A DNA stretch of 64,000 nt, taken from assembly GCA_030998015.1 (NCBI GenBank), contig JARWMV010000083.1, positions 1-64,000 on the forward strand. Direction: 5' to 3'. The translations under genes and the position numbers were made by a program. Each line of letters starts with the position of its first letter. The stretch's first letter is position 1. The notes beneath the pieces are model-generated. The model had not been told where the DNA came from. It worked only from the letters and a program-made list of their open reading frames with translations, and made no database searches. The DNA comes from Ceratorhiza oryzae-sativae. Taxonomy: Eukaryota > Basidiomycota > Agaricomycetes > Cantharellales > Ceratobasidiaceae. Below are positions 1 through 53,889 of this stretch, piece by piece.

Positions 1-3000
1 ACTCCGATATCAAGGGATTCTTCGAGAGTGGCCACGGAAAAAGCTTCACGATTTGCAATGTGTTTGAACACAACGCTTCCGACGATATCCGGGTGTATGT
101 CAAGCACGAGCTCGATCAAAAACCATCTCGATCAAAGCTACTACCAATAGACGCAGCTCAAAGCATTGTTGCAAAGTCCTCGGGGCTTTTCATTTGGGCC
201 CGCACTGCGTGCGAGCTGGTACTATACGATGACGACCCGCCCAAAGCCTTGGACGACGTCTTGAATAGCACGATGACTGGGCAGTCGTCCCAAGCGCTTG
301 ACGACTTATACACAATGGCTATCAAGGCAAGCAGAGATCGGAGACAAAGGGCGGATAAGGCAACGGAAGCCGTGCGAAAATGCTTGGGAGCTATCATTGT
401 ATGCTCGACTCGCACGCCCTGTCCATCAAGGCGTTGAGCAAGCTCTACGGGGACCAAATGAGCGAGAACGTCTTGCAGTCGGTAGTCGATCGTTTAGGCT
501 CCGTACTCTACGTCGACCACGGTTTAGGGGATGCCATTCGTGTGTATCATGCCTCTTTTGCAGATTATATGCTTGATCCGGCGAGATCCGGGGAGTATGC
601 TGTCGACCAAAGCGAGCAAAACTCGCACTTCGCGGCTCGCGGTTTGTCTATTATGATGAATGAGCTCAAGTTTAATATCTGCGGACTTGAAACATCGTAC
701 AAGCGCAATGATGAGGTGGAGGATCTGAAGCAACGCATAGATGAAAACATCCAACCTCACTTGAGATACTCCTGCACGTATTGGACAGACCACCTAGCTA
801 GTTGCGTGGAGGATCAGAACAGGAGGCTTCGTGAAGGAATAAAGAGATTCTTTTCTGGGGTTACCGTGCTGTACTGGATAGAGGTTCTGAGTTTGCTCAT
901 GCGGCTAAATGTCGTGTCACCAAGTATACAAGCCTTGCAATCCTACCTTACGGTGCGCGAACATACATGGAGCCTATAGAGGCCCCAGAGAATTGATATG
1001 ATACTGATGAGTTCATTCCTCTGTAGGAAGCAGATACGGAGATTTACAAGCTATTGAAGGATGTTGAGCGCTTCGTACGAGCATTCTCTATTCCTATAAG
1101 AGAAAGTACACCGCACTTGTACACATCAGCGCTGGCCTTTTTACCATCCGATTCCTTGCTCGGGGTTGTGAAAGAGAAGCAGTTCTCAAACACGATCCGG
1201 GTGATAAGAGGCATGTCACAGCGGTGGGCGCCATGGTCGCAACTTATACCTCATGAAAATTCGGTTTGGTGTGTCGCATACTCGCCTGATGGTCGTCACA
1301 TGGTCTCTGGCTCATACGACAAGACAGTGCGAGTGTGGGATGCGCATACAGGTGCTGCAGTTGGTCAACCACTTGCTGGTCACTCAGACTCGGTCAACTC
1401 TGTCGCATACTCGCCTGATGGTCGTCACATCGTCTCTGGCTCATCTGACAACACAGTGCAAGTGTGGGATGCGCATACAGGTGCTGCAGTTGGTCAACCA
1501 CTTGCTGGTCACTCAGACTCGGTCTGGTCTGTCGCATACTCGCCTGATGGTCGTCACATCGTCTCTGGCTCATCTGACAACACAGTGCGAGTGTGGGATG
1601 CGCATACAGGTGCTGCAGTTGGTCAACCACTTGCTGGTCACTCATACTCGGTCCTTTCTGTCGCATACTCGCCTGATGGTCGTCACATCGTCTCTGGCTC
1701 ATCTGACAAGACAGTGCGAGTGTGGGATGCGCATACAGGTGCTGCAGTTGGTCAACCACTTGCTGGTCACTCAAACTCGGTCAACTCTGTCGCATACTCG
1801 CCTGATGGTCGTCACATCGTCTCTGGCTCATCTGACAACACAGTGCAAGTGTGGGATGCGCATACAGGTGCTGCAGTTGGTCAACCACTTGCTGGTCACT
1901 CAGACTCGGTCTGGTCTGTCGCATACTCGCCTGATGGTCGTCACATCGTCTCTGGCTCATTACAACACAGTGCGAGTGTGGGATGCGCATACAGGTGCTG
2001 CAGTTGGTCAACCACTTGCTGGTCACTCAGACTCGGTCCTTTCTGTCGCATACTCGCCTGATGGTCGTCACATCGTCTCTGGCTCATCTGACAAGACAGT
2101 GCGAGTGTGGGATGCGCATACAGGTGCTGCAGTTGGTCAACCACTTGCTGGTCACTCACTCGGTCCTTCTGTCGCATACTCGCCTGATGGTCGTCACATC
2201 GTCTCTGGCTCAAGACAACACAGTGCGAGTGTGGGATGCGCATACAGGTGCTGCAGTTGGTCAACCACTTGCTGGTCACTCATACTCGGTCAACTCTGTC
2301 GCATACTCGCCTGATGGTCGTCACATCGTCTCTGGCTCATACGACAACACAGTGCGAGTGTGGGATGCGCATACAGGTGCTGCAGTTGGTCAACCACTTG
2401 CTGGTCACTCAGACTCGGTCCTTTCTGTCGCATACTCGCCTGATGGTCGTCACATCGTCTCTGGCTCATCGACAACACAGTGCGAGTGTGGGATGCGCAT
2501 ACAGGTGCTGCAGTTGGTCAACCACTTGCTGGTCACTCATCCTCGGTCCTTCTGTCGCATACTCGCCTGATGGTCGTCACATCGTCTCTGGCTCATCTGA
2601 CAAGACAGTGCGAGTGTGGGATGCGCATACAGGTGCTGCAGTTGGTCAACCACTTGCTGGTCACTCAGACTCGGTCCTTTCTGTCGCATACTCGCCTGAT
2701 GGTCGTCACATCGTCTCTGGCTCATACGACAAGACAGTGCGAGTGTGGGATGCGCATACAGGTGCTGCAGTTGGTCAACCACTTGCTGGTCACTCAGGAT
2801 GGGTCAACTCTGTCGCATACTCGCCTGATGGTCGTCACATCGTCTCTGGCTCATCTGACAACACAGTGCGAGTGTGGGATGCGCATACAGGTGCTGCAGT
2901 TGGTCAGCCACTTGCTGGTCACTCATTCTTGGTCCTTTCTGTCGCATACTCGCCTGATGGTCGTCACATCGTCTCTGGCTCATCTGACAAGACAGTGCGA

Positions 3001-3525
3001 GTGTGGGATGCGCATACAGGTGCTGCAGTTGGTCAACCACTTGCTGGTCACTCAGACTGGGTCAACTCCGTTGCACACTCGCCTGACGGTCGTCACATTG
3101 TCCCTGGTTCAGATGACAACACAATCCGAGTACAGGATAACAGTCTCTTACATGGTTCTCCTACCAGGCAACAGATTTATAATAGTCCTCCCACAGATGC
3201 TGTTTCGCCTGGACACAACATTACCCAAGGCATCTCAGCCCCTTTGACTACAATTTACCAAAATACACTCTCCATCATCCCCCTTCATCAAAATGTTTCT
3301 CACTTGAGTCAACTTTTCCAATCAGATGGATGGGTCTCCCTATCACCTGGCAAACTTCTCTTCTGGTTACCCCCCGAGTATCAACGACCGAGACATGATG
3401 ACTCAGCGCTTGTCATTTCTTCTAACGCTGCAGATCATCCAGTGTGGCTCGAAATGTCGTATTTCAAACATGGTATTGGATGGGGCAACGTGTACGTCAC
3501 TACTGAGGGAATTAGTGCACAATAG
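1..3525 (+). CDS. STAND/NACHT-type NLR-like protein with WD40 repeats, 5' partial, frameshifted
   Basis: The 3' part of a fungal NLR-like (NACHT/NWD) gene; such proteins are nucleotide-binding switches that sense ligands through C-terminal repeats. The frame is open to the left window edge, so the P-loop lies outside. Residues coded at 3-952 resemble the post-NACHT winged-helix/helical region ([17 protein letters not shown]). A 74-nt GT-AG intron at 953-1026 joins this region, in phase, to the WD40 domain. The first frame ends near 419 and the next begins there: one extra C in the CCC run at 417-419 would join STRTP to LSIKALSKL. Frame changes in the repeat array (about 1960, 2213, 2470, 2545) cancel, and the frame returns to read a 130-residue tail ending at 3525. 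The protein is either a pseudogene or, as I think more likely, an intact gene with assembly deletions. The sensing specificity is unknown. Confidence 0.8.
1249..3138 (+). repeat. Array of 15 near-identical 129-nt WD40 repeats
   Basis: Fifteen copies of a 43-residue WD40 unit (core [15 protein letters not shown] ... [20 protein letters not shown]) lie head to tail. Copies are almost identical in DNA except at a few codons: the two residues after GHS (DS, YS, NS, SS, GW, FL, DW), the residue before SV (N, W or L), Y/S and N/K around SGSxDx, and Q/R in V(Q/R)VWD. Copies 2-4 and 5-7 repeat the same N-W-L order, so a three-unit block of about 387 bp seems to have been duplicated. Only the first and last copies are diverged. 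The array probably forms one or two beta-propellers used for recognition. Confidence 0.92.
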
Positions 3526-10722: not shown

Positions 10723-13700
10723 ATGGCACCAAGCCACCCTTACACCTGTATCTGCCTTAAACGACAATTCAGCTCTCCAAGGGCACTTACTATGCACAAA
10801 AATGCATGTCCTGTTGTGGCTGAGTGTGATCGCCACCTGTATTCTCCCTACCGGCAACAACCCCAACATAAGAAATTGTATCACCATACCCCAACCTCAC
10901 AAAAAATTGTAGCGTCAAATAAGACTCATAGTTATCCTTGTGAGGATACCCTCATAAGCTCAGCACTGGTGCAACTTATGTTATTTCATTAGCATCTAAG
11001 TTACTGAAACCGCCAGCTGCCAGGATACTAGCAGTGGTGACTGCGTTATCTCCAATGATCCAGGTGACATTGGGGTTCACCATGATGATCTTGGCATTGC
11101 CGCTGCAGTTACAATACCTACCTATCCCATCACTTGCTCTCGTACTCGACGTATGCTCAAAACTCATTGTGACATGTTCGATATCCTTCCCAAAGCTCCA
11201 CCTGTGCTCCTTGAGACCCTTGCACCTGAACCTAATCGGTCTGCTGCTCACACACACTTATGGTTCACTCCTTTCAAAACACTGGTTGACTCTTTTGGCT
11301 GATTTCATACCTATACATCAAGACCGCTAACAATTCCAGACAGTGATGCAGCGCTAGATGATTTCACTGACCTGGATCTTGCCTTCAATACCTCTAACAA
11401 CCCCCTGATAAGTACCTTGCTACGTGATGCAATAGCTCCATGTCCCAACTTGTCTACTTTCTACCTCTTGTGTTGGTTCTGCAAGCGATCAAAAAATTCT
11501 ATGGAGAGCCGGAAAGAGTTGGTGGATGAAGTCTTACTCCAACAATACTTCAATGCTTCCGACTTGGCCAATGTAGATTTGAAGGCTGTGGATAAGGAGC
11601 TTGCTGCGGCAGCATCACATGCTTCGCTGGGCGATGAAATGTTCACTCCAGCTGAGGGTTGCAAGGCAAGATCTGTGCTGGTCCAAGTGCCAACATTGCA
11701 AAAGGGGTTCAACCGAGGCTCGAGGATGGGTCACCGAGTAATGGTTCCAGGTGAGCTAACACAAAATCTCTTTAATTAATTAATTAATTAATTATCCTCT
11801 ATACTAGGTTTGCACTCACGCACAATTCTGAAAGGCATATGTAAGGGATTCACCCAAAACAACACTACCCATTTCCACTACAAACCGTTCACACTCTCAT
11901 GGATACCGCCCAACGAGCCCAAATCAAAAGCACAAACGCTGATGGGCGACATATATAATTCGCTGGCAATGATCGAGGCTCACAAGGAGATACAAAAACT
12001 TAAAATTTCAGACAAGGACTGTACCCTCCCTCAAGTAGTTGCTGTGGCTATGTTTGGATCGGACGCAGTGCAGCTTGGCGCATTCAGCACCAAAAAGGCA
12101 TGGATGATGTATATGTGGCTAGGTAATCTTAGCAAGTACGAGCGCTGCAAGCCAAACTCGGGCTTGTGCTTTGACCTTGCACATATTCCGTCTGTGAGTA
12201 CCAGAATATTTTATCTCTAGATTTATTACTTACATTCAATCCCAGCTACCTGATAGCGTCAAGGACAAGATCAAAAAGCTTAACGGACGCCCACCATCAC
12301 CCAGTCTCCTGACCCACCTTCAGCGCAAGCTTATGCACGCTGTTATGCAGGAACTTCTTGACGCCGATTTCTTGCAAGCTTGGCAGCATGGAATCGTCAT
12401 CAAATGTGCTGATGGGATAAAGCGACAAGTGTTTCCTCGCATATTTACTTATTCCGCTGACTATCCTGAGAGGCAAGTCAGCGATTTTAACTTCCAAAAT
12501 TTATGAATCATAGTCAAACTAATATATTCCTTTGTAGAGTTTTACTGGCTACAATACGAGACAAGGGTGCATGACCTTGTCCTCGGTGTTTAGTCCCTCT
12601 CAAGCTTGCGCACAAGATGGGTACTTGTTCCGACATGCAAATGAGGACAAAACGTGCAAGGCATGATAACCTCACATGACAGAAACTTGTTCGGTGTGCT
12701 CGAGAGGTTATATATAATCAAAACAAAGCTGTTGATAACACTGAGGTCGAACACCTATTACGTGCAACTTCGCTTGTACCAACTGAGGTATGTCTACATG
12801 CAAGTGCACAAAATTTAATTAATAATCCACCAACTGTCTATCTGTAGAACGCCTTCTTGTAGCAGCTCTTACTGTTTAAATTCGATTTTTTTGGCATGTT
12901 CGTTGTCGATCTTCTCCACGAAATTGAACTAGGGGTTTGGAAATTGCTCCTAATGCATCTCCTTCGAATCGTCTACGGCCGCGGGAGCAACACCGTAGCT
13001 GAGTTTAACCACAGGTATGTTCCAACAGCCCTTACACATGCGCAATTAACAATACATTCAGATTTCGGCAAGTTCCAACGTTTTCGAATTCAACCATCCA
13101 GAAGTTTAGTGAAGATGTTACCAGCCTAAAGCGCCTGGCTGCAAGAGATTTTGAGGATATCCTACAAGTGAGCTTAATATACTAATTCATGTTACTGTAT
13201 CCTAAATTTCTCTGGATCTTCTTTAGTGCTGCATGCCCGTCTTCAAAGGACTTTTACCCAACGCCATTGATTCTCAAGTTCAACGTCTCCTTTTCACGCT
13301 CTCTTATTGGCATGGTCTAGCTAAACTCCGCCAGCACACCACTGCAACGCTCAAAACCCTTTCCGAGGCGACTATCCGATTGGGGAATGAACTACGAGCC
13401 TTCCAGGAAGCTACAAACAATATGGAAGTGTTTGAAACACCTCGGGAATATAGTGCACGACAGCACAAGGCATCTGCAAAAGCACAACGCCAGCAAGCGT
13501 CAGCCAACATGCCAGCCCAAACAGCACGAAAACTCTGCAAACTAAACTTGAATACACCCAAGTTCCATATGGTTGGGCATTACGTGGCTGTAATTGCTCA
13601 TTTTGGAACAACTGATTCTTTTTCAACTCAAACAGTGAGCTATACTATTCAAATCCAGCCGCATTAGCGTTATCTAAACTCTCATAATTTCTAGACCAAG

Positions 13701-13799
13701 CTACAGCATCGGAAAATAAAAGCCCAATGGTTCCGAACAAATATGCGGGACGCCATATTCCAGATGACAAAGATTGGCGATATCGGTGATGCACTAGAC
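10723..13799 (+). pseudogene. Large transposase-like gene, segment 1 (interrupted by insertions)
   Basis: First part of a multi-exon gene of a family very common in Agaricomycete genomes and related in style to CACTA/Tnp2 transposases. ATG at 10723 opens an N-terminal Cys/His motif (CICLKRQF...LTMHKNAC). Later exons carry LFK...VDLLHEIELGVWK (about 12900-12960), the family's hallmark, and a CPCPRCLVP metal-binding-like block (about 12575). Stops lie at 11300-11302 (TGA), 12572-12574 (TGA) and 12860-12862 (TAG), so the gene is dead. Introns fit at 11752-11808 and 12195-12245 approximately. The frame reaches GDIGDALD at 13799 and continues at 19330, after the inserted element. Family naming is by recollection of conserved segments. 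Confidence 0.65.
13792..13799. other. 8-bp target site duplication, left copy
   Basis: CACTAGAC immediately precedes the left terminal inverted repeat and recurs exactly after the right one (19322-19329). Confidence 0.9.
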
Positions 13800-13975
13800 T
13801 AGACTCCTTCCCAGTCTTGTTCTTGCACGTCACGTGCTTTTCTTAAACTTATGTGAGCACGGCGTGCTCGAACGACTGGCACCACTCTTCGGCGCTTAGT
13901 TTTGTTTGGCCGATCTGAGCCCCTCTCCGTCACTCCTTCGTGATCCATCGAGTCACATTCGCACGCTTCACGTGA
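13800..13975 (+). repeat. Left 176-bp terminal inverted repeat
   Basis: Starts TAGACTCCTTCCCAG and ends CGCTTCACGTGA. The reverse complement is at 19146-19321, with one mismatch seen (TTCTTGC against TTCTCGC). It contains a perfect palindrome GAGCAC-GGC-GTGCTC and a CACGTCACGTG motif that could bind a protein. It lies directly upstream of the DUF6589 gene and probably supplies its promoter. Confidence 0.92.
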
Positions 13976-14007
13976 CGGGCCTCCTATCTCCTTTTCCGCC
14001 ACTTGTT

Positions 14008-16731
14008 ATGATCCTCAGAGAACAGCTAGACGTCTTTGCTAGAATACTTCAAAACGATGATATATCATTATTTGACTTGATACATGCATATATTGCTGAG
14101 CCCGAGCCAACCGAGGCGATTTTTGCACCACAACAACAAATTTGCAGCCCTCCGGCACTAAATGCACTTATATGTACCCTCCTGAACGCACCTCAAACCG
14201 CCCCCACCATTAATCGCATCGCTCACAACATCGCCCTTCGTACCTATGCATGCGAACTGGGCTCGCTACTTCTACCCGCTGCCGGGTTCCACTTCAATGT
14301 GGCGCATGCGAAGCCCTCGCAGTTCTCTGAATTTTCAAGCATGAAAATGGCAAGCACCTTTGAAGAGCGCTGCCCGTCTGTATGGAGACTATTTGGAACG
14401 CTTCTAAACGTTGTGGCGATTCAGAGGGAGGCCGCCTCAGCCAACGAACAGGGCGACTACTTGACGGAGATTACATACCGTCATCGGGCCGACAAACCCT
14501 CCCTCCCAATGCCGGAGCTGTCTGCTGCCGATGTAGCGTCGGATGTGGGTGCCGATATGCCAGATGAGGACTGGGGGATGCATATAGATGACGATCTACT
14601 CGAAGACGAGCTCGAGGCTTCGGAATCGAATGGAGTTGGCCAAGGGCAGTCTGGCGATGTTCAGAGTGTACAAACGGGCGCGCCTTGGCAGAAGAACAAG
14701 GGAAAGGCGTTACGGAAACAGATAGAGCGGACATATGTGGTGAGTCTTATTTAAAGAATATAATAAAATTTGTACTGACCAGTCTGAATACAGCGGCGCC
14801 TCGCTCTGTTCAGCATCTGCATGAACAATAGCAATGCGCGTTGTAATAGCCTACAGGCGATTATTGGCATGTTTGCTCACACCGAGAATACCTCCGAGAG
14901 AACAATCGAGTTCCTCTCACATGCAGGCTTGAGCGTGGCGCCAACGTCAATAAATCGGATGGTCGACCAAATGTCCAAAGAGGCACGCAAATCGCTGAAA
15001 AGCGAGCTGGCAGGTCTAGTTTCGGCGATTGGGCTAGATAACCTCGAGGCTCGATTTGATACAGAACAACCCACAGCCGAAAACCCAGGCCAACTGGTTA
15101 GCATGGCCTCAGCCGCATTCTTCCCGCTTCGGCCTGGGACGATGAAGGAGGACTTACGGGTGTGCGAAGAGTTATGGGCACGCTCGGAATTTAACCCGTA
15201 TCGCTCATTGCCACCCGTAGTATTCTCGCATGACCGATTGATGTCGATGATTGCAAAGACGTCGTTCGTGTCGGACGATGAGAAGAGCATCCACTCATTA
15301 TTTGCCTGGCATGTCCGCGATATTTTACTGAGCGAGGACCTGGAAACAATACCAGCGGACCTGAAAAAAATATTTCGCCAGGAATGTTTGGGCTTACCGG
15401 CTCAACGAAGCTGGATCCCTTGCACAAAAACGACGCAGAAGCCTATACCCACAATGGACATTAGCCTATCGACGACAGATGGCAACGCTAGGGCGATGAA
15501 CAAAATACTTGAGCGGGGAGGCGCAATTAAAGAACAACTGAAGGCCTACATTATACTTATGCATGCCGATTTGGGGACGGTCGAAAAATTCTTGAGCCTC
15601 CAAGAAAGTCGAGCAATCGAGGACGAAGCGTGGGACCGCCTCCAGTTTGTTGTTTCCCTACCCGGGTGGTTTCATATTCGTATGGCCCTGGCCGACGCCA
15701 TGCATCGACTATGGATCCATCCTGAGAGGTCTCGCGCCGGCCATCCAACTCACCCACACTCCCTATTCCACCTTTGTACACTCTTACGGCCTAGAGAGAT
15801 AGGGAAAATCAGTACCAATCCAGGGTTTCGACGAACTCACAGCCTAATACAGCACCTGGCACTTGCGACAATCGCTGACGGCTGGCGATTGACGGTCAGG
15901 AGGATATACGGCGTCGACCTAAAGGATTGGAGACCGACATGGGAGCAAGTGGTCCACGTTTCTCGTCAGGTAGTCAGCGAGCACGTTGCTGCTTTATCGT
16001 ATCGCCCTGCCCATTGCTCCGGAACCAGCGGCGATATGGTCCATGACCAAGTCCGACTGTTTAATCAAAATGCGCTACTCTACCTCAGCGTCACGCGAGC
16101 TGCTCGATACGGCGACGTCCGGCGAGTCCGAGACCTTCTCCCTATGTGGGTTTATATCTGGAGACAGACAGGCAAGCATAAGTACGCTCGACACATCACA
16201 CGATTCCTTACATACCTCGACGGCGGGTGGCCTGCCAAGCTATCCAATGTGGTCCAACAAAACTGGCTTGTTAACCCGACTGGAAAAATAGATGGCTTTC
16301 GAGGTGCCGACTGGGTCATCGAGCGCAACAATTACTTCCAAAAGCGCCAGTATTCTGGGTCTGGCTCAAACCGAACACCAGAACACTTGAGGAAAGAATC
16401 AGTATTGATCGAGGAGTATCAAACCGTGCACAGAATTATAGAGAAGAATTTTTATTTAACGCCACGGACTATACTACATCCGCCACCTGTGATGAAAACA
16501 AGTCTAGCAATTGTTAGGAGATATCTAGAGGGCGAAAAAATGGGCTCACATCAAGCAGGCCGAGTATTCTCTTCCCCTCCGGTCAATGCATTTGCAGCTG
16601 GTGTTGAAGAAGCGACCAAGGAGGCAGGGAGTCTATGGTGGGCAACGGAGGAGGAACCTAGGATGGAGGAGGAAGGGGTAGATGGTGATAATGAGGGGAT
16701 ACAACTTGGATATTTGGCAGTCGAGGAATAG
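14008..16731 (+). CDS. DUF6589 protein, putative transposase of the element
   Basis: Two exons (14008-14739 and 14794-16731, joined in phase by a 54-nt GT-AG intron) give 889 residues with no internal stop. The second exon matches the fungal DUF6589 family: an MDISLSTTDGN segment (Asp about residue 466), ILMHADLGTVEKF (Asp about 503), the PGWFHIRMALADAMHRLW block (about 535-550), RPREIGKI...PGFRRTH, and NWLVNPTGK near the C-terminus. The spaced conserved Asp residues after strand-like segments suggest an RNase H-like DDE nuclease, but that is my inference; the family has no proven activity that I know of. The ATG lies 33 bp inside the terminal repeat. It is the longest intact ORF of the element and so the best transposase candidate. 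The first exon (about 244 residues) is not recognised. Confidence 0.8.
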
Positions 16732-16867
16732 AGGTAGTTGGCGTGGTGATCAAAAATATCAGTGGCCGTCTATCGTAGCTGTTGCAGCGCTTTGATTGCG
16801 GCCAAGGGCGGCCTAATTAAAAATAAATAATTGATATTGTCTATTAAACAACCTCTTATTATACTTA
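16732..16867. other. Gap between convergent 3' ends
   Basis: Short AT-rich spacer between the two convergent genes of the element. Both transcripts probably end here. Confidence 0.4.
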
Positions 16868-19068
16868 CCTCCACCTCTTTCTTCTGCGGGCACTTTCGAA
16901 CTAGTAGGTATTAGCTAGATAATCGATCAGAATAGGTATGGAGACTCACATGTGTGACCTGATATCCCACACCCACTGCAGGTCATAACCTTCTTTGGTT
17001 CAGCGCGAGAGGCACGAGGAGTGCTTTGTGTGGTCGTTGAAGCAGCAAGGTGGGGTCGAGAGGCATCAGGAGGGGGGTAGGAGGTGTGGATGATCTTCAG
17101 CACATCTACAGCATATGGAGCAAAATATAACCACTTGAACTCGCGATCAAAGTCAGAAAGGGTTGGAATCAAGCCACGGCGGGCAAGAGACACAACTCGA
17201 TCGATTTGATTGTCGCCAATGAGGCCGATACCGCCTACAATATGATGTGGACCCCATTGAGCCTCAGCAGCTTTGTCGTGCCAAATACAAAGGGCCTCCT
17301 GAAGACCGTGGTTGACGTCGCTCCAGTTCCCAAAGTCTTTCTCCGGCATTTTTTTCTGTGGGCGGGCTCGAGGGGGAGGCTTGAACTCATCTACAGTAAG
17401 TATAGATTCTGCCAGCAACTTGTTGCATATGTCACAGCATCAGTCAGGCGAGGGCGGCGGAGGACAACATCGCTCGCAACAATACTCTTCATCACCCACT
17501 ATGAATAATGAATCAAGCATGAGATGAATAAAATATATTAAGACCATTGTACTCACCTTGAGGAATATCAGGGTTGTAAAAATGTTGATCGCCGGGCCTG
17601 CAACGACAGCCAGATCCTCGCACCTCAGCATTGATGAACGCATCCAGTACCAGCTCAATTTCAATCTTGTCGCCATCTTGACCCTCCGAGGGCTGAGTGG
17701 TGCAGGGCAGAGTGGTGGAGCCAGTCATGTCGGTAGTGGATGACTCTTCTTGTGCTGGGGCTGCGCCATGATCTTTAGCCTTGGTACGTTGCTTCTTTGA
17801 CAGCTGAGTGGAAGGTTTGGCCTCCTCCACTTTTCGCTTCTTTCCCTTCCCCGTCGATTGGTTCTGTGCTGATGTGGTAGTTTTGTCAAAGTACTTCGGT
17901 TCCACTATCACAATCACAATGCCAGTTCGGCCGTGACCTCGCGCTGCGCGACCAATCCGCTGAAACAAAATACAAAACCATCCCGGTACTTGAAATTGTA
18001 CCACAAGATCTATGTCCGGAATATCTATGCCCTAGAATATATTTGTTCCATTAAGGCTTGCTAAATACGTGAATTTTGCTCACCATTCCCGCCACATCTG
18101 TGCATACAACACCAAATAGTTCCCCCGTCTTAAGCTTTTCCATTGCACACTTGTTAAACCTGCTTGTCATATCTGCATGGACCCAAACTACTCGCTCTTG
18201 GAGCTCAGGGGGAAGTCGAGAGCAAAGAAATCGAGCAGCTCTCTCACAGAGCTTTTTACTGCGCATGAACAACATGAATTTTGGTGGTGGTGGGGAAGTT
18301 GGGGTGAGGCCTGATGGGATGAGGAATGCAATGTCATGGAGGGATTTGAGTGTATGCTTCATTTTTTGGACAACTAGAGCAATATTGCAACAAGTATTTG
18401 ACCACCGGATAACCTTGGCTTTGTGGAGCCCAAGCAACCGTTTGAGTTCAGAGATCATTAAGGGAGTGAGTGTTGCCGAGAGAGCAAGGAATGTGGCGCT
18501 GGATAGCATGGCAGGGAGAAAGCACAGTCGGTGGTAAACAGGCCGAAAATCGCCCCAGTCTAACACACAATGCGCCTCGTCAAACACAACTTGAGTGACA
18601 CAGTTTCGGAACGCCGGTGAGTTCCAAAGATATTTCCAAAAGCGCTCATCCTCATCAATGTATTCAGGGGAGGCAATGACTAGTTGGTATTCCCCACGTG
18701 CGATGTCCTAGCTACACTTGAATAATCACTCTAAACGCTTATACAAGGCGTACCTTGAACAGTTCATCTGAAGTTGTTTCCTTCGTCAAGTTGACAGCTC
18801 GAATTCCGAGTTTTTTTAATGCTGAATGCGATGCATGTTGACCACTGAGCAACTGAAGCAGGCTAATCAAGAGGCAAACACCAGTAGGGTCCCAGATAAA
18901 TGGCATTAAGAACGACAACAATTTCCCCGAGCCTGTAGGGGAAACAAGTACCGAGTGCTGCTGTTGAAGCTGTAGATCGCAGATGCGGATCTGGAATTTG
19001 CACGGTCGGACACCAAAGATAGACTCAGTCTTAATAGCAATTGCATGTGGTGAGACTGGTGCCAACAT
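16868..19068 (-). CDS. RecQ-like ATP-dependent DNA helicase with zinc knuckle (one in-frame TGA)
   Basis: Superfamily 2 helicase of RecQ type, expected to unwind DNA using ATP. Exons fit at 19068-18754, 18707-18084, 18031-17557 and 17498-16950, with a last exon from 16900. Motif I is SPTGSGK, motif II FDEAH, motif III LSATLT, motif V TDVAGM-GIDIPD (across an intron) and motif VI QRIGRAAR. Downstream is a Cys cluster (CRCRPGD ... CCERCC ... CCDIC) like the RecQ zinc-binding domain. At the C-terminus a CCHC knuckle, CSGCGISGHTFRKC, forms only after splicing 16950 to 16900. A TGA at 17440-17442 lies inside the Cys cluster with the same frame open on both sides, so this copy may be inactive or may use read-through or an unseen splice. 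The 3' end is uncertain. Confidence 0.8.
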
Positions 19069-19145
19069 ATTATTGAATAAAGATAAGAAACAAGATAAAT
19101 TAGTCTTTAGAAAAACAACGAAGTGGCGGGAGAGTGAGGATCGAA

Positions 19146-19321
19146 TCACGTGAAGCGTGCGAATGTGACTCGATGGATCACGAAGGAGTGACGGAGAGGG
19201 GCTCAGATCGGCCAAACAAAACTAAGCGCCGAAGAGTGGTGCCAGTCGTTCGAGCACGCCGTGCTCACATAAGTTTAAGAAAAGCACGTGACGTGCGAGA
19301 ACAAGACTGGGAAGGAGTCTA
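19146..19321 (-). repeat. Right 176-bp terminal inverted repeat
   Basis: Inverted copy of 13800-13975, same length with no indel. It lies directly upstream of the helicase gene (ATG at 19068), so the same promoter-like sequence serves both genes. Confidence 0.92.
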
Positions 19322-19329
19322 CACTAGAC
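19322..19329. other. 8-bp target site duplication, right copy
   Basis: CACTAGAC, identical to 13792-13799. Confidence 0.9.
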
Positions 19330-28933: not shown

Positions 28934-29976
28934 TTATTGCGGTTTCAGAAACGGTTTTCCGCGTGACCAAACCTTTTTCGAAAAGTGGCCGCAGGATCAA
29001 ATCGAGCCTGGAAAGACTCAGTCGTATATAATCAGCTAGCAACTTTCATACAAAGGTAAGTACATTGTTGGAACCATGGGCTTGGGGCGCATGTAACAGG
29101 ATACAGTGTTTATGATAATATACAAGAATGAGAATGGACCCACCTGGCAGTGCATTGGTGGTTTCGGCTGCAGGAGGGAAAAAGAGAGCAGAGGAATGAT
29201 GCGAGCGTACTATTAGAGCGCTGCACAATGCGTGTGTAAAAAGAATGAAGGCAAACGAAGCTGAATTGACCGAGATATTGTCCAACAAAAACAGGGGCTG
29301 GCCCCCTGAAAAGCGATAGCCTACTTTGGGTGTTTTACCCTATATGCTGCTTTGAAAGCTTGATAAATTGGCCATTTCAATGGTCTGGGCTATGGAATAA
29401 CTTTTTGCTGATGTTATTCATGTAAACGTTAGGTTGAAAATCTGCCTGTGGCCCCGTATTACTGTTTTTCTCATGCTCATTAATTCTGCTTGAAGTGAGC
29501 ACTGATATACTGCCACAAGCTTTCTCATGAGCTACTGAAATATTTGACTAAGTCTGAGGCTGCCAGCTCTGGTAAAAGATCTGAAATAGGCTGTTGCTTT
29601 TCAGGGGGCCAGCCCCTGTTTTCATTGGACAATATCTTGGTCAATTCAGCTTTGTTTGCCTTCATTCTTCTTACACACACATTGTGTGGCACTCTAATAG
29701 TATGCTTGCATCATTCCTCCACTCCCTTTTTCCCTCCTGCAGCCAAAACCACCAATGCACTGCCAGGTGGGTCCATTCTCATTCTTGTATATTATCATAA
29801 ACGCTGTATCCTGTTACATGCGCCCCAAGCCCATGGTTCCGACGATGTACTTACCTTTGTATGAAAGTTGCTAGCTGATTATATACGACTGAGTCTTTCC
29901 AGGCTCGATTTGATCCTGCGGCCACTTTTCGAAAAAGGTTTGGTCACGCGGAAAACCGTTTCTGAAACCGCAATAA
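28934..29976. repeat. Large palindrome: two 392-bp inverted arms around a 259-bp loop
   Basis: The left arm 28934-29325 and right arm 29585-29976 are inverted copies, about 90% alike by eye, with matching ends (TTATTGCGGTTTCAG). The arms share an 80-codon open frame ending in VLTFV that reads on the minus strand in the left arm and the plus strand in the right one. It may be a foldback/MITE-type element or an inverted duplication. No flanking duplication was found. Confidence 0.75.
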
Positions 29977-50788: not shown

Positions 50789-51021
50789 GCGCTCGGTGGA
50801 CAATGAGCCTACCATCAGTCGACTCTTCAGCCCCAGCTGTGAGCAATGGTTCTCCACTCCTTCTGGATTTTGTTATTAACCCCCCACCTTTTTATTTATA
50901 GCTTCAAGTCGCTTCTTTCATTGCCCAAAATTCTCTCATATCTTCTTCAAAGCATCTTTCGTAAGTGCTTCACAAAATAAGGACAACATATTTGACATAC
51001 CTGCCACCGGTAGCTACAACC

Positions 51022-51690
51022 ATGGTCGGAAACGGTCGCGCTGCACTCAACATCCAAGGCACCAACGAGTCCTACTTTTTCCAAAACTCCAAATTCTGCC
51101 AAATCCAATGGCACCCAGGCCAGACCGAAGGCGAAAAGCTCATGTATGGCCCGGCCCAGATCGAGAAGGAGTGGCCGGCTCTGCAAAAGGCCGGGTTCAA
51201 GCAGGTCGACGCTGCACTCGAGATTGGGAATAACGTGGCCTACATTTTCTGCGGTAAAAAATACTGTCGCGTGCGCGGCAAGGACGAAATCGTCGGGGAC
51301 GTACAGGACATCACGACTGGCTGGCCATCGCTCAAGAAGGCCAAGTTTGAAACGATCGATGCGGCACTTCGGACCCCAGGCCATGTGAACCAGGCGTATT
51401 TCTTCTCTGGCGACAAATATGTTCGTGTCGAATACGAGGTCGGGCAAGCGAACGACAAGATTATCGACGGGCCCAAGTCAATTCGCGAGGGATGGCCAAA
51501 CTTGACGTTCGAGCGGATCGATATAGCGCTCCCGCGACCGGACAATGACCAGCAGGGCGTTTATTTATTCTCGGAGGACAAGTATATGCAGGTCAAGGTT
51601 GATGTGGGTGGAACAAAGGATGAGATTGTGAGCAATGAGCGTGAGGTGGCCAAGTACTGGCCCGCTCTGAAGCAGGCTGGGTTCTACTAG
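51022..51690 (+). CDS. Hemopexin-like beta-propeller protein 1
   Basis: One exon, 222 residues, no signal peptide. The sequence consists of four hemopexin-like repeats of about 50-55 residues, each with an (A/D)ALxxxGxxxxxYFF(S/C)GxKYxR(V/I) strand pair and a GP..I...WP.L...F helix: AALNIQGTNESYFFQ, AALEIGNNVAYIFCGKKYCRV, AALRTPGHVNQAYFFSGDKYVRV, and IALPRPDNDQQGVYLFSEDKY. This is the four-bladed propeller fold of hemopexin, PA2 albumins and similar plant and fungal proteins, which bind heme, polyamines or other small ligands. The ligand here is unknown. A close paralog lies at 53218-53889. It is expected to be cytosolic. Confidence 0.88.
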   Translation: MVGNGRAALNIQGTNESYFFQNSKFCQIQWHPGQTEGEKLMYGPAQIEKEWPALQKAGFKQVDAALEIGNNVAYIFCGKKYCRVRGKDEIVGDVQDITTGWPSLKKAKFETIDAALRTPGHVNQAYFFSGDKYVRVEYEVGQANDKIIDGPKSIREGWPNLTFERIDIALPRPDNDQQGVYLFSEDKYMQVKVDVGGTKDEIVSNEREVAKYWPALKQAGFY

Positions 51691-52983: not shown

Positions 52984-53217
52984 CGTGGACTGGAACAATC
53001 CCAAGACATCAGCACTTGAGCGTCTACCTCTGGTAGAGCCCTTCCTACCTGATCTAGTTCGTCAACTGACAATCACTTGATTTCATTGCCGTGCAGAGCG
53101 ACTCCACTCAACACTCGCAAAACTGGCAAGCATCTTTCACTACTTTTTTCGTAAGTCAATCCACACCCCCCCCAAAAAATATCCGACTCAACCGACTCAC
53201 CAATCTACCCAGCAACC

Positions 53218-53889
53218 ATGTCCAGCAACAGCCGCGCAGCACTCAACATCGAAGGCACCAACGAGACCTACTTTTTCCAGGGCACCAAATACTGCGTGGT
53301 CAACTGGACTCCGGGTCACCCCAAGGAACAAAAGCTCGTCCACGGGCCAAACATGATCGAGAAAGATTGGCGCTCGCTCCGCGAGGCCGGGTTCAAACAA
53401 GTCGAAGCCGTGCTGCCGATCGGGAACCGCATGTCGTACATATTCTGCGGCAAGAAATACTGCCGCGTTCGCGACAAGGAGGAACTCGTCGGCAAGGTCC
53501 AGAACATCTCCGATGGCTGGCCGTCGCTCAAAAAGGCCAACTTTGAGACCGTCGACGTTGCGCTCCGCGTTCCGGGCCACCCTCGCCAGGCCTACTTTTT
53601 CTCCGGTTCCAAGTTTGTTCGTGTCGAGTTTGAGGAAGGCCAGCTCGACGACAAGATCGTCGACGGGCCCCACCCGATTCACGAGCGCTGGCCAAAGTTG
53701 CCGTTCAGCGAGGTCGAAATGGCGCTGCCCCGCCCGGACAACGATCAAAAGGGAGTCTACATGTTCTCGGGATCCAACTGCGTGCAGCTCATCATTGATG
53801 TGGGTGGACCAGACGACGAGATTGTGGGCGATGAGGAATCGATTGCCAAGTTGTGGCCAGCGTTGAAAGAGGCAGGGTTTTATCACTAA
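53218..53889 (+). CDS. Hemopexin-like beta-propeller protein 2
   Basis: One exon, 223 residues, aligned along its whole length with the protein at 51022-51690 (the same four repeats and same ends, WPALK(E/Q)AGFY). Repeat starts are AALNIEGTNETYFFQGTKYC, EAVLPIGNRMSYIFCGKKYCRV, VALRVPGHPRQAYFFSGSKFVRV and MALPRPDNDQKGVYMFSGSN. There is no signal peptide and no intron in the coding part. The pair is a recent tandem duplication, and the matching leader layout (TATA at -241, leader intron) suggests common regulation. Confidence 0.88.
   Translation: MSSNSRAALNIEGTNETYFFQGTKYCVVNWTPGHPKEQKLVHGPNMIEKDWRSLREAGFKQVEAVLPIGNRMSYIFCGKKYCRVRDKEELVGKVQNISDGWPSLKKANFETVDVALRVPGHPRQAYFFSGSKFVRVEFEEGQLDDKIVDGPHPIHERWPKLPFSEVEMALPRPDNDQKGVYMFSGSNCVQLIIDVGGPDDEIVGDEESIAKLWPALKEAGFYH

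Follow-up and report, generated by a model that had tools for sequence, protein, structure and literature searches.

What moved the DNA at positions 13800-19321 of contig JARWMV010000083.1 of the fungus Ceratorhiza oryzae-sativae, where a gene of the Pfam family DUF6589, a family of unknown function, lies beside a gene for a RecQ-like helicase? The element is 5,522 bp long and is part of a 64,000-nucleotide stretch that was analysed as a whole and is referred to here as the window. We regard it as a recently inserted DNA transposon with the DUF6589 protein as its transposase and the RecQ helicase as an accessory protein, and we give this reading a probability of about 0.87. Boundaries, duplications, empty sites, copies, pairing and ratios of nonsynonymous to synonymous change (dN/dS) were read from sequence; the protein fold and its conserved triad are predicted. 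The parts of the element, with its terminal inverted repeats (TIRs), are as follows.

13792..13799, no strand: left copy of the target-site duplication, CACTAGAC, read from sequence and present once at the empty site
13800..13975, plus strand: left TIR of 176 bp, beginning TAGACTCCTTCCCA, with termini that recur, identical or similar, in other copies
14008..14739, plus strand: predicted exon 1 of the DUF6589 gene, with a modelled ATG, resembling the N-terminal part of homologues
14740-14793, plus strand: predicted DUF6589 intron of 54 bp (GT..AG), from the gene model
14794..16731, plus strand: exon 2 of the DUF6589 gene with the predicted DDE transposase core (PF20231, E=1.6e-88; fold and residues)
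16927..17498, minus strand: last predicted helicase exon, its start near 17498 computed from a modelled intron
17557..19068, minus strand: RecQ-family helicase gene with the SF2 core (predicted exons 19068-18754, 18707-18084 and 18031-17557)
19146..19321, minus strand: right TIR of 176 bp, from comparison of both ends
19322..19329, no strand: right copy of CACTAGAC, read from sequence

The initial annotation held that the limits of the element can be read to the base, and they can. The TIRs are of equal length and differ at a single position (13824), and the 8-bp duplication CACTAGAC is exact on both sides. A 20-base terminus pattern with up to three mismatches has two matches in the window, one at each end of the element, and none of 100 shuffles gave two. 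A Helitron or other rolling-circle origin was rejected because the element has long TIRs and is flanked by target duplications. The motif CACGTG lies near TIR positions 32 and 170 in three copies; a fourth has it at position 32 only, and the other eight of the 12 copies examined lack it near their ends. This is too weak to call it a binding site.

That the insertion is real, and probably recent, follows from a related empty site that has CACTAGAC only once. Joined together, the flanks of the element make 298 bases with one CACTAGAC, and all 298 are identical to C89:22057-22354 in the same genome; the alignment of this site with the window flanks runs without gaps over 793 bp at 99.5%. The C89 site may be paralogous or allelic. 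The joined flanks also match C39 at 93% and, over 263 bases, three further places at 70-72% identity. Empty sites were sought for three of 17 delimited insertions and found for two. The C240 copy has an empty relative at C233 (97% over 300 bases), which is itself part of a 1.6-kb short element with related ends, whereas the joined flanks of the C243 copy gave no empty site, only single flanks and partial matches. It had been claimed that removal of the element restores a host reading frame. A frame is indeed open across the joined flanks, but it belongs to no nameable gene and adjoins the degenerate coding sequence of a Plavaka transposase, within a multi-copy repeat. Fragments of that degenerate transposase lie at window positions 11792-12506, in the repeat that received the element. 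Plavaka was rejected as the identity of the element itself, as the PF18759 match is confined to the flanking host repeat and DUF6589 is the sole convincing family in the transposase candidate.

A search for further copies, which the initial annotation had proposed for related genomes, was made in the genome assembly of the same fungus, as were all locus counts below. The TIR was found at 11 places, which represent five two-ended copies and one single end, and the terminus pattern at 27 places against five with a reversed-pattern control. Target duplications were detected at 17 insertions (16 exact, one 7/8). Six are exact 8-bp duplications (window, C240, C232, C43, C232:2.94 Mb and one C235 copy), the C241 copy has an 8-bp duplication matching at seven of eight positions, and ten are exact duplications of 9 bp (C3, C244, C7, C243, the other C235 copy, C10, C79, C9, the short C233 element and the outer C240 element). 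None of the 17 has a 10-bp duplication. The terminus YAGNCTC is common to all 17. A second element type, 6.7 kb long and with short repeats, has three copies that are 99.8-99.9% identical. Their duplications measure 9, 8 and 9 bp, which shows that one element can yield both lengths. Two short elements, C233:1117124-1118747 and C240:277529-285999, have CAGACTCCTACCCA ends and exact 9-bp duplications and are presumably non-autonomous; the latter holds a nested DUF6589 element.

Chance ends were rejected because shuffles rarely match (a scan for terminus plus duplication gave 0.125 matches per shuffle of the C43 locus in 40 mononucleotide shuffles) and because the empty site fixes the boundary. 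The scan overlooked C241, which has one mismatch, and recovered the C79 pair with a longer stretch. It found no end pair in C237:112000-119800 or C51. Six more pairs with 8-11 of 12 end bases matching (C43, the second C235 copy, C240, C241, C232 and C7) are taken as chance or as internal to TIRs. Four single ends (C51, C55, C234 and C252) have no partner.

The candidate for the enzyme is the DUF6589 protein, as the initial annotation had suggested. The one-intron gene model of the window copy encodes 889 residues with no internal stops. The predicted structure is an RNase H-fold DDE nuclease core with a helical insertion, and its nearest folds are Hermes, the P element, ISCth4 and RAG1; comparison with RNase H-fold transposases was the check that had been proposed. 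In the frame beginning at 14788, the conserved residues are D84 (154 of 159 rows), D261 (160 of 160) and E512 (127 of 129), from an alignment of 163 of 173 proteins of 450-1000 aa and the window protein; a further alignment, A1, omitted two of 30 matches (P0010 and P0011). In the model D84 lies in strand 79-90, D261 follows strand 256-260 and E512 is in helix 507-522, so the order D-D-E is that of RNase H-fold DDE enzymes in general. The N-terminal part of a full-length homologue model is of low confidence, and for this reason no DNA-binding domain is named. Taken as a prediction from fold and residues, DUF6589 is very probably the transposase of the element and would carry out the cleavage and strand-transfer chemistry.

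The closest proteins (82% identity) are from Ceratobasidium. The widest homology search gave 297 proteins, and the 120 listed all have PF20231. The named relatives among the matches listed are from mushroom-forming and related fungi, genera that we take to be Agaricomycetes. The searches scored about 8,000 candidates with the most shared words and returned 30, 25 and 297 proteins, and at this depth the lack of animal members is uninformative. On viral contigs 51 stretches fit a pattern, with no relative confirmed, and viral structures gave no match at E below 0.001. If the DDE assignment is right, many fungal genes now called hypothetical would be reclassified as mobile DNA.

The second gene was correctly described as RecQ-like. 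It is a DEAD/Helicase_C RecQ helicase with three short predicted introns, and its core matches TIGR00614 (E=1.9e-36, yet under the curated cut-off of that model). Its best solved relatives are RecQ1, RecQ, WRN, RECQ5 and BLM. In the gene models the two genes are on opposite strands and converge. The element had been called complete, which calls for a caveat, since the helicase gene of the window copy is not fully intact: an in-frame TGA follows codon 490 of the gene model and separates the first stretch of the last predicted exon from the Cys-rich C-terminal part. The corresponding frames in the C232 and C79 copies are free of stops; the C240 copy carries its own stops there. The window copy may thus have been mobilised with help from other copies.

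These observations suggest a working model. The DUF6589 protein would bind the inverted-repeat ends at YAGNCTC, excise the element with its RNase H-fold DDE active site, and join the ends to the target with a stagger of 8 or 9 bp, which would leave duplications of 8-9 bp. The RecQ-family helicase would travel along as an accessory that acts after cleavage. In the simplest view it would aid strand-displacement repair of the donor gap; alternatively it could unwind intermediates. In Drosophila, the BLM helicase supports strand-displacement repair of P-element gaps. Because the nearest folds are those of cut-and-paste enzymes, which leave breaks at the donor site, and BLM has this role, a RecQ encoded by the element could increase copy number through gap repair from a sister copy. 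In the repair of P-element gaps the helicase belongs to the host, while DUF6589 elements encode their own. A helicase role in excision or replication of the element is plausible. With DUF6589 assigned as the transposase, the elements would offer a tractable transposon with its own RecQ helicase, in which the question of why some transposons need a helicase becomes directly testable.

To which known group does the element belong? AcademH is said to be a lineage of the Academ superfamily, reportedly set out by Kojima in 2020. In the available excerpts of the literature, AcademH comprises helicase-encoding DNA transposons of animals and fungi with duplications of 9 or 10 bp (PMC10045372); it is low-copy in Basidiomycota, Ascomycota and Mucoromycota and is linked to DEAD and Helicase_C domains (PMC10799480). 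We lean towards the view that the element belongs to AcademH and that DUF6589 is the Pfam name for the fungal AcademH transposase. A fungal DNA transposon with a DEAD/Helicase_C helicase gene is common to both, as are two neighbouring duplication lengths with 9 bp among them (10 of our 17 insertions). Against it, seven of the 17 duplications are of 8 bp (one with a mismatch) and none is of 10 bp, and the likeness is one of descriptions. By published descriptions, AcademH is the likeliest filing, though unproven. It concerns the name and is compatible with a DUF6589 transposase mechanism. The claim that no described superfamily has such a pair of genes is not supported in that form, since AcademH with a helicase and KolobokH with a RecQ are in print, as far as the excerpts of those papers go; helicase-bearing fungal DDE transposons are an already described kind. 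A literature search found no paper naming DUF6589, and a search for RecQ, transposase and TIRs in Basidiomycota found a single paper, apparently on Helitrons; neither shows absence from print.

That DUF6589 elements form a separate superfamily outside Academ is a tentative proposal to which we give roughly half the credence of the AcademH reading. They would be defined by a DDE core like those of Hermes and RAG, the motif GxxH, YAGNCTC termini, 8-9 bp duplications, and a constant RecQ partner that drives amplification through donor-gap repair. The protein is like hAT (Hermes) in its RNase H DDE core with helical insertion, a likeness of the predicted model only. It is unlike hAT in sequence. 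When 11 members were scanned against Pfam at E up to 5, DUF6589 was matched in all 11 and each of seven other families in a single member; no hAT family was among them. At position -3 to the conserved H296, G stands in 151 of 158 rows, in contrast to the C/DxxH that Kolobok and hAT have between the second D and E (PMC9587614, in excerpt). The element type of the window further differs from hAT in its long TIRs and helicase partner. P element, ISCth4, RAG1 and Transib differ in sequence from DUF6589, for which Pfam gives no match to another transposase family.

Could the helicase instead be a captured host or subtelomeric gene without a role in transposition? Multi-copy RecQ core helicases are found in subtelomeric families of several fungi (PMC7473861, in the part available), the window gene has its in-frame stop, and six of the 28 helicase places lack DUF6589. 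The element helicase differs from the subtelomeric genes in that it is bounded by TIRs and duplications and is paired with DUF6589. Loci were merged and paired by hand, and the counts are lower bounds: there are at least 26 DUF6589 loci (51 matches) and at least 28 helicase places (31 matches). A helicase accompanies 22 of the 26 DUF6589 loci in two gene orders, 10 convergent as in the window and 12 divergent. The spacing is within 6 kb in 21 of these pairs; it is 17 kb in C9, yet inside one end pair. The loci without a helicase are C237:77412, C55 (close to the end of its contig), C51 and C3:185150. For the 14 pairs with retrieved sequence, DUF6589 and helicase protein distances correlate at 0.98 (0 of 2000 permutations); the value is 0.96 for the nine convergent copies (0 of 2000) and 0.995 for the five divergent copies (4 of 120). 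The dN/dS values are 0.05, 0.08 and 0.14 in the three of ten comparisons that were not saturated (dS was saturated in the other seven), and both genes, where this is measurable, appear to be under purifying selection. Pairing, correlated divergence and low dN/dS argue against a chance passenger, which would be lost, and we consider a captured helicase improbable.

It is less probable still that DUF6589 is a passenger or regulator, with movement provided in trans by another transposase. There are indeed short elements (about 1.6 kb; C233:1117124-1118747) that have related ends and duplications; they are presumed to be non-autonomous, so this genome probably does allow mobilisation in trans. However, the six scanned open reading frames (ORFs) of the window element contain no other transposase domain, and DUF6589 itself models as a DDE transposase with a conserved triad. 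All 15 delimited long elements hold DUF6589, a weak point as most were chosen for having it.

The identification with KolobokH, a Kolobok transposase with a RecQ helicase known only from fungi according to excerpts of PMC9587614, which also says that a rhodophyte Kolobok carries RecQ on the complementary strand as in the window element, shares the helicase and the fungal host with DUF6589 elements but is very improbable, being contradicted by three tested features: the duplications are varied and of 8-9 bp (TTAA in 0 of 17), the termini are 5'-YA, and C or D precedes H296 at -3 in none of 158 rows, whereas Kolobok, in the sources as excerpted, has TTAA duplications and 5'-RR termini.

Compared with window positions 13800-19321, the copy at C241:1057735-1063253 has 378 substitutions, of which 328 are C-to-T or G-to-A, and 292 of these changes are at CpG. 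The C232 copy has no CpG bias (120 of 474 such changes at CpG). The observed/expected ratio of CpG, which is 0.91 in the window copy and 0.96 in C232, falls to 0.06 in C241 and 0.02 in C43. The C240 copy is left out of this comparison because it had not been brought into the same orientation. The pattern suggests CpG-directed decay of some copies, which may be similar to repeat-induced point mutation (RIP-like) or driven by methylation.

Elsewhere in the window, a tandem array at 1272-3131 has 14.5 units of 129 bp with 94% matches and codes for WD40 repeats. A fold-back structure at 28934-29976 has 406-bp inverted arms that are 94% complementary and 231 bp apart. Two nearby ORFs, at 50965-51690 and 53155-53889, have hemopexin matches.
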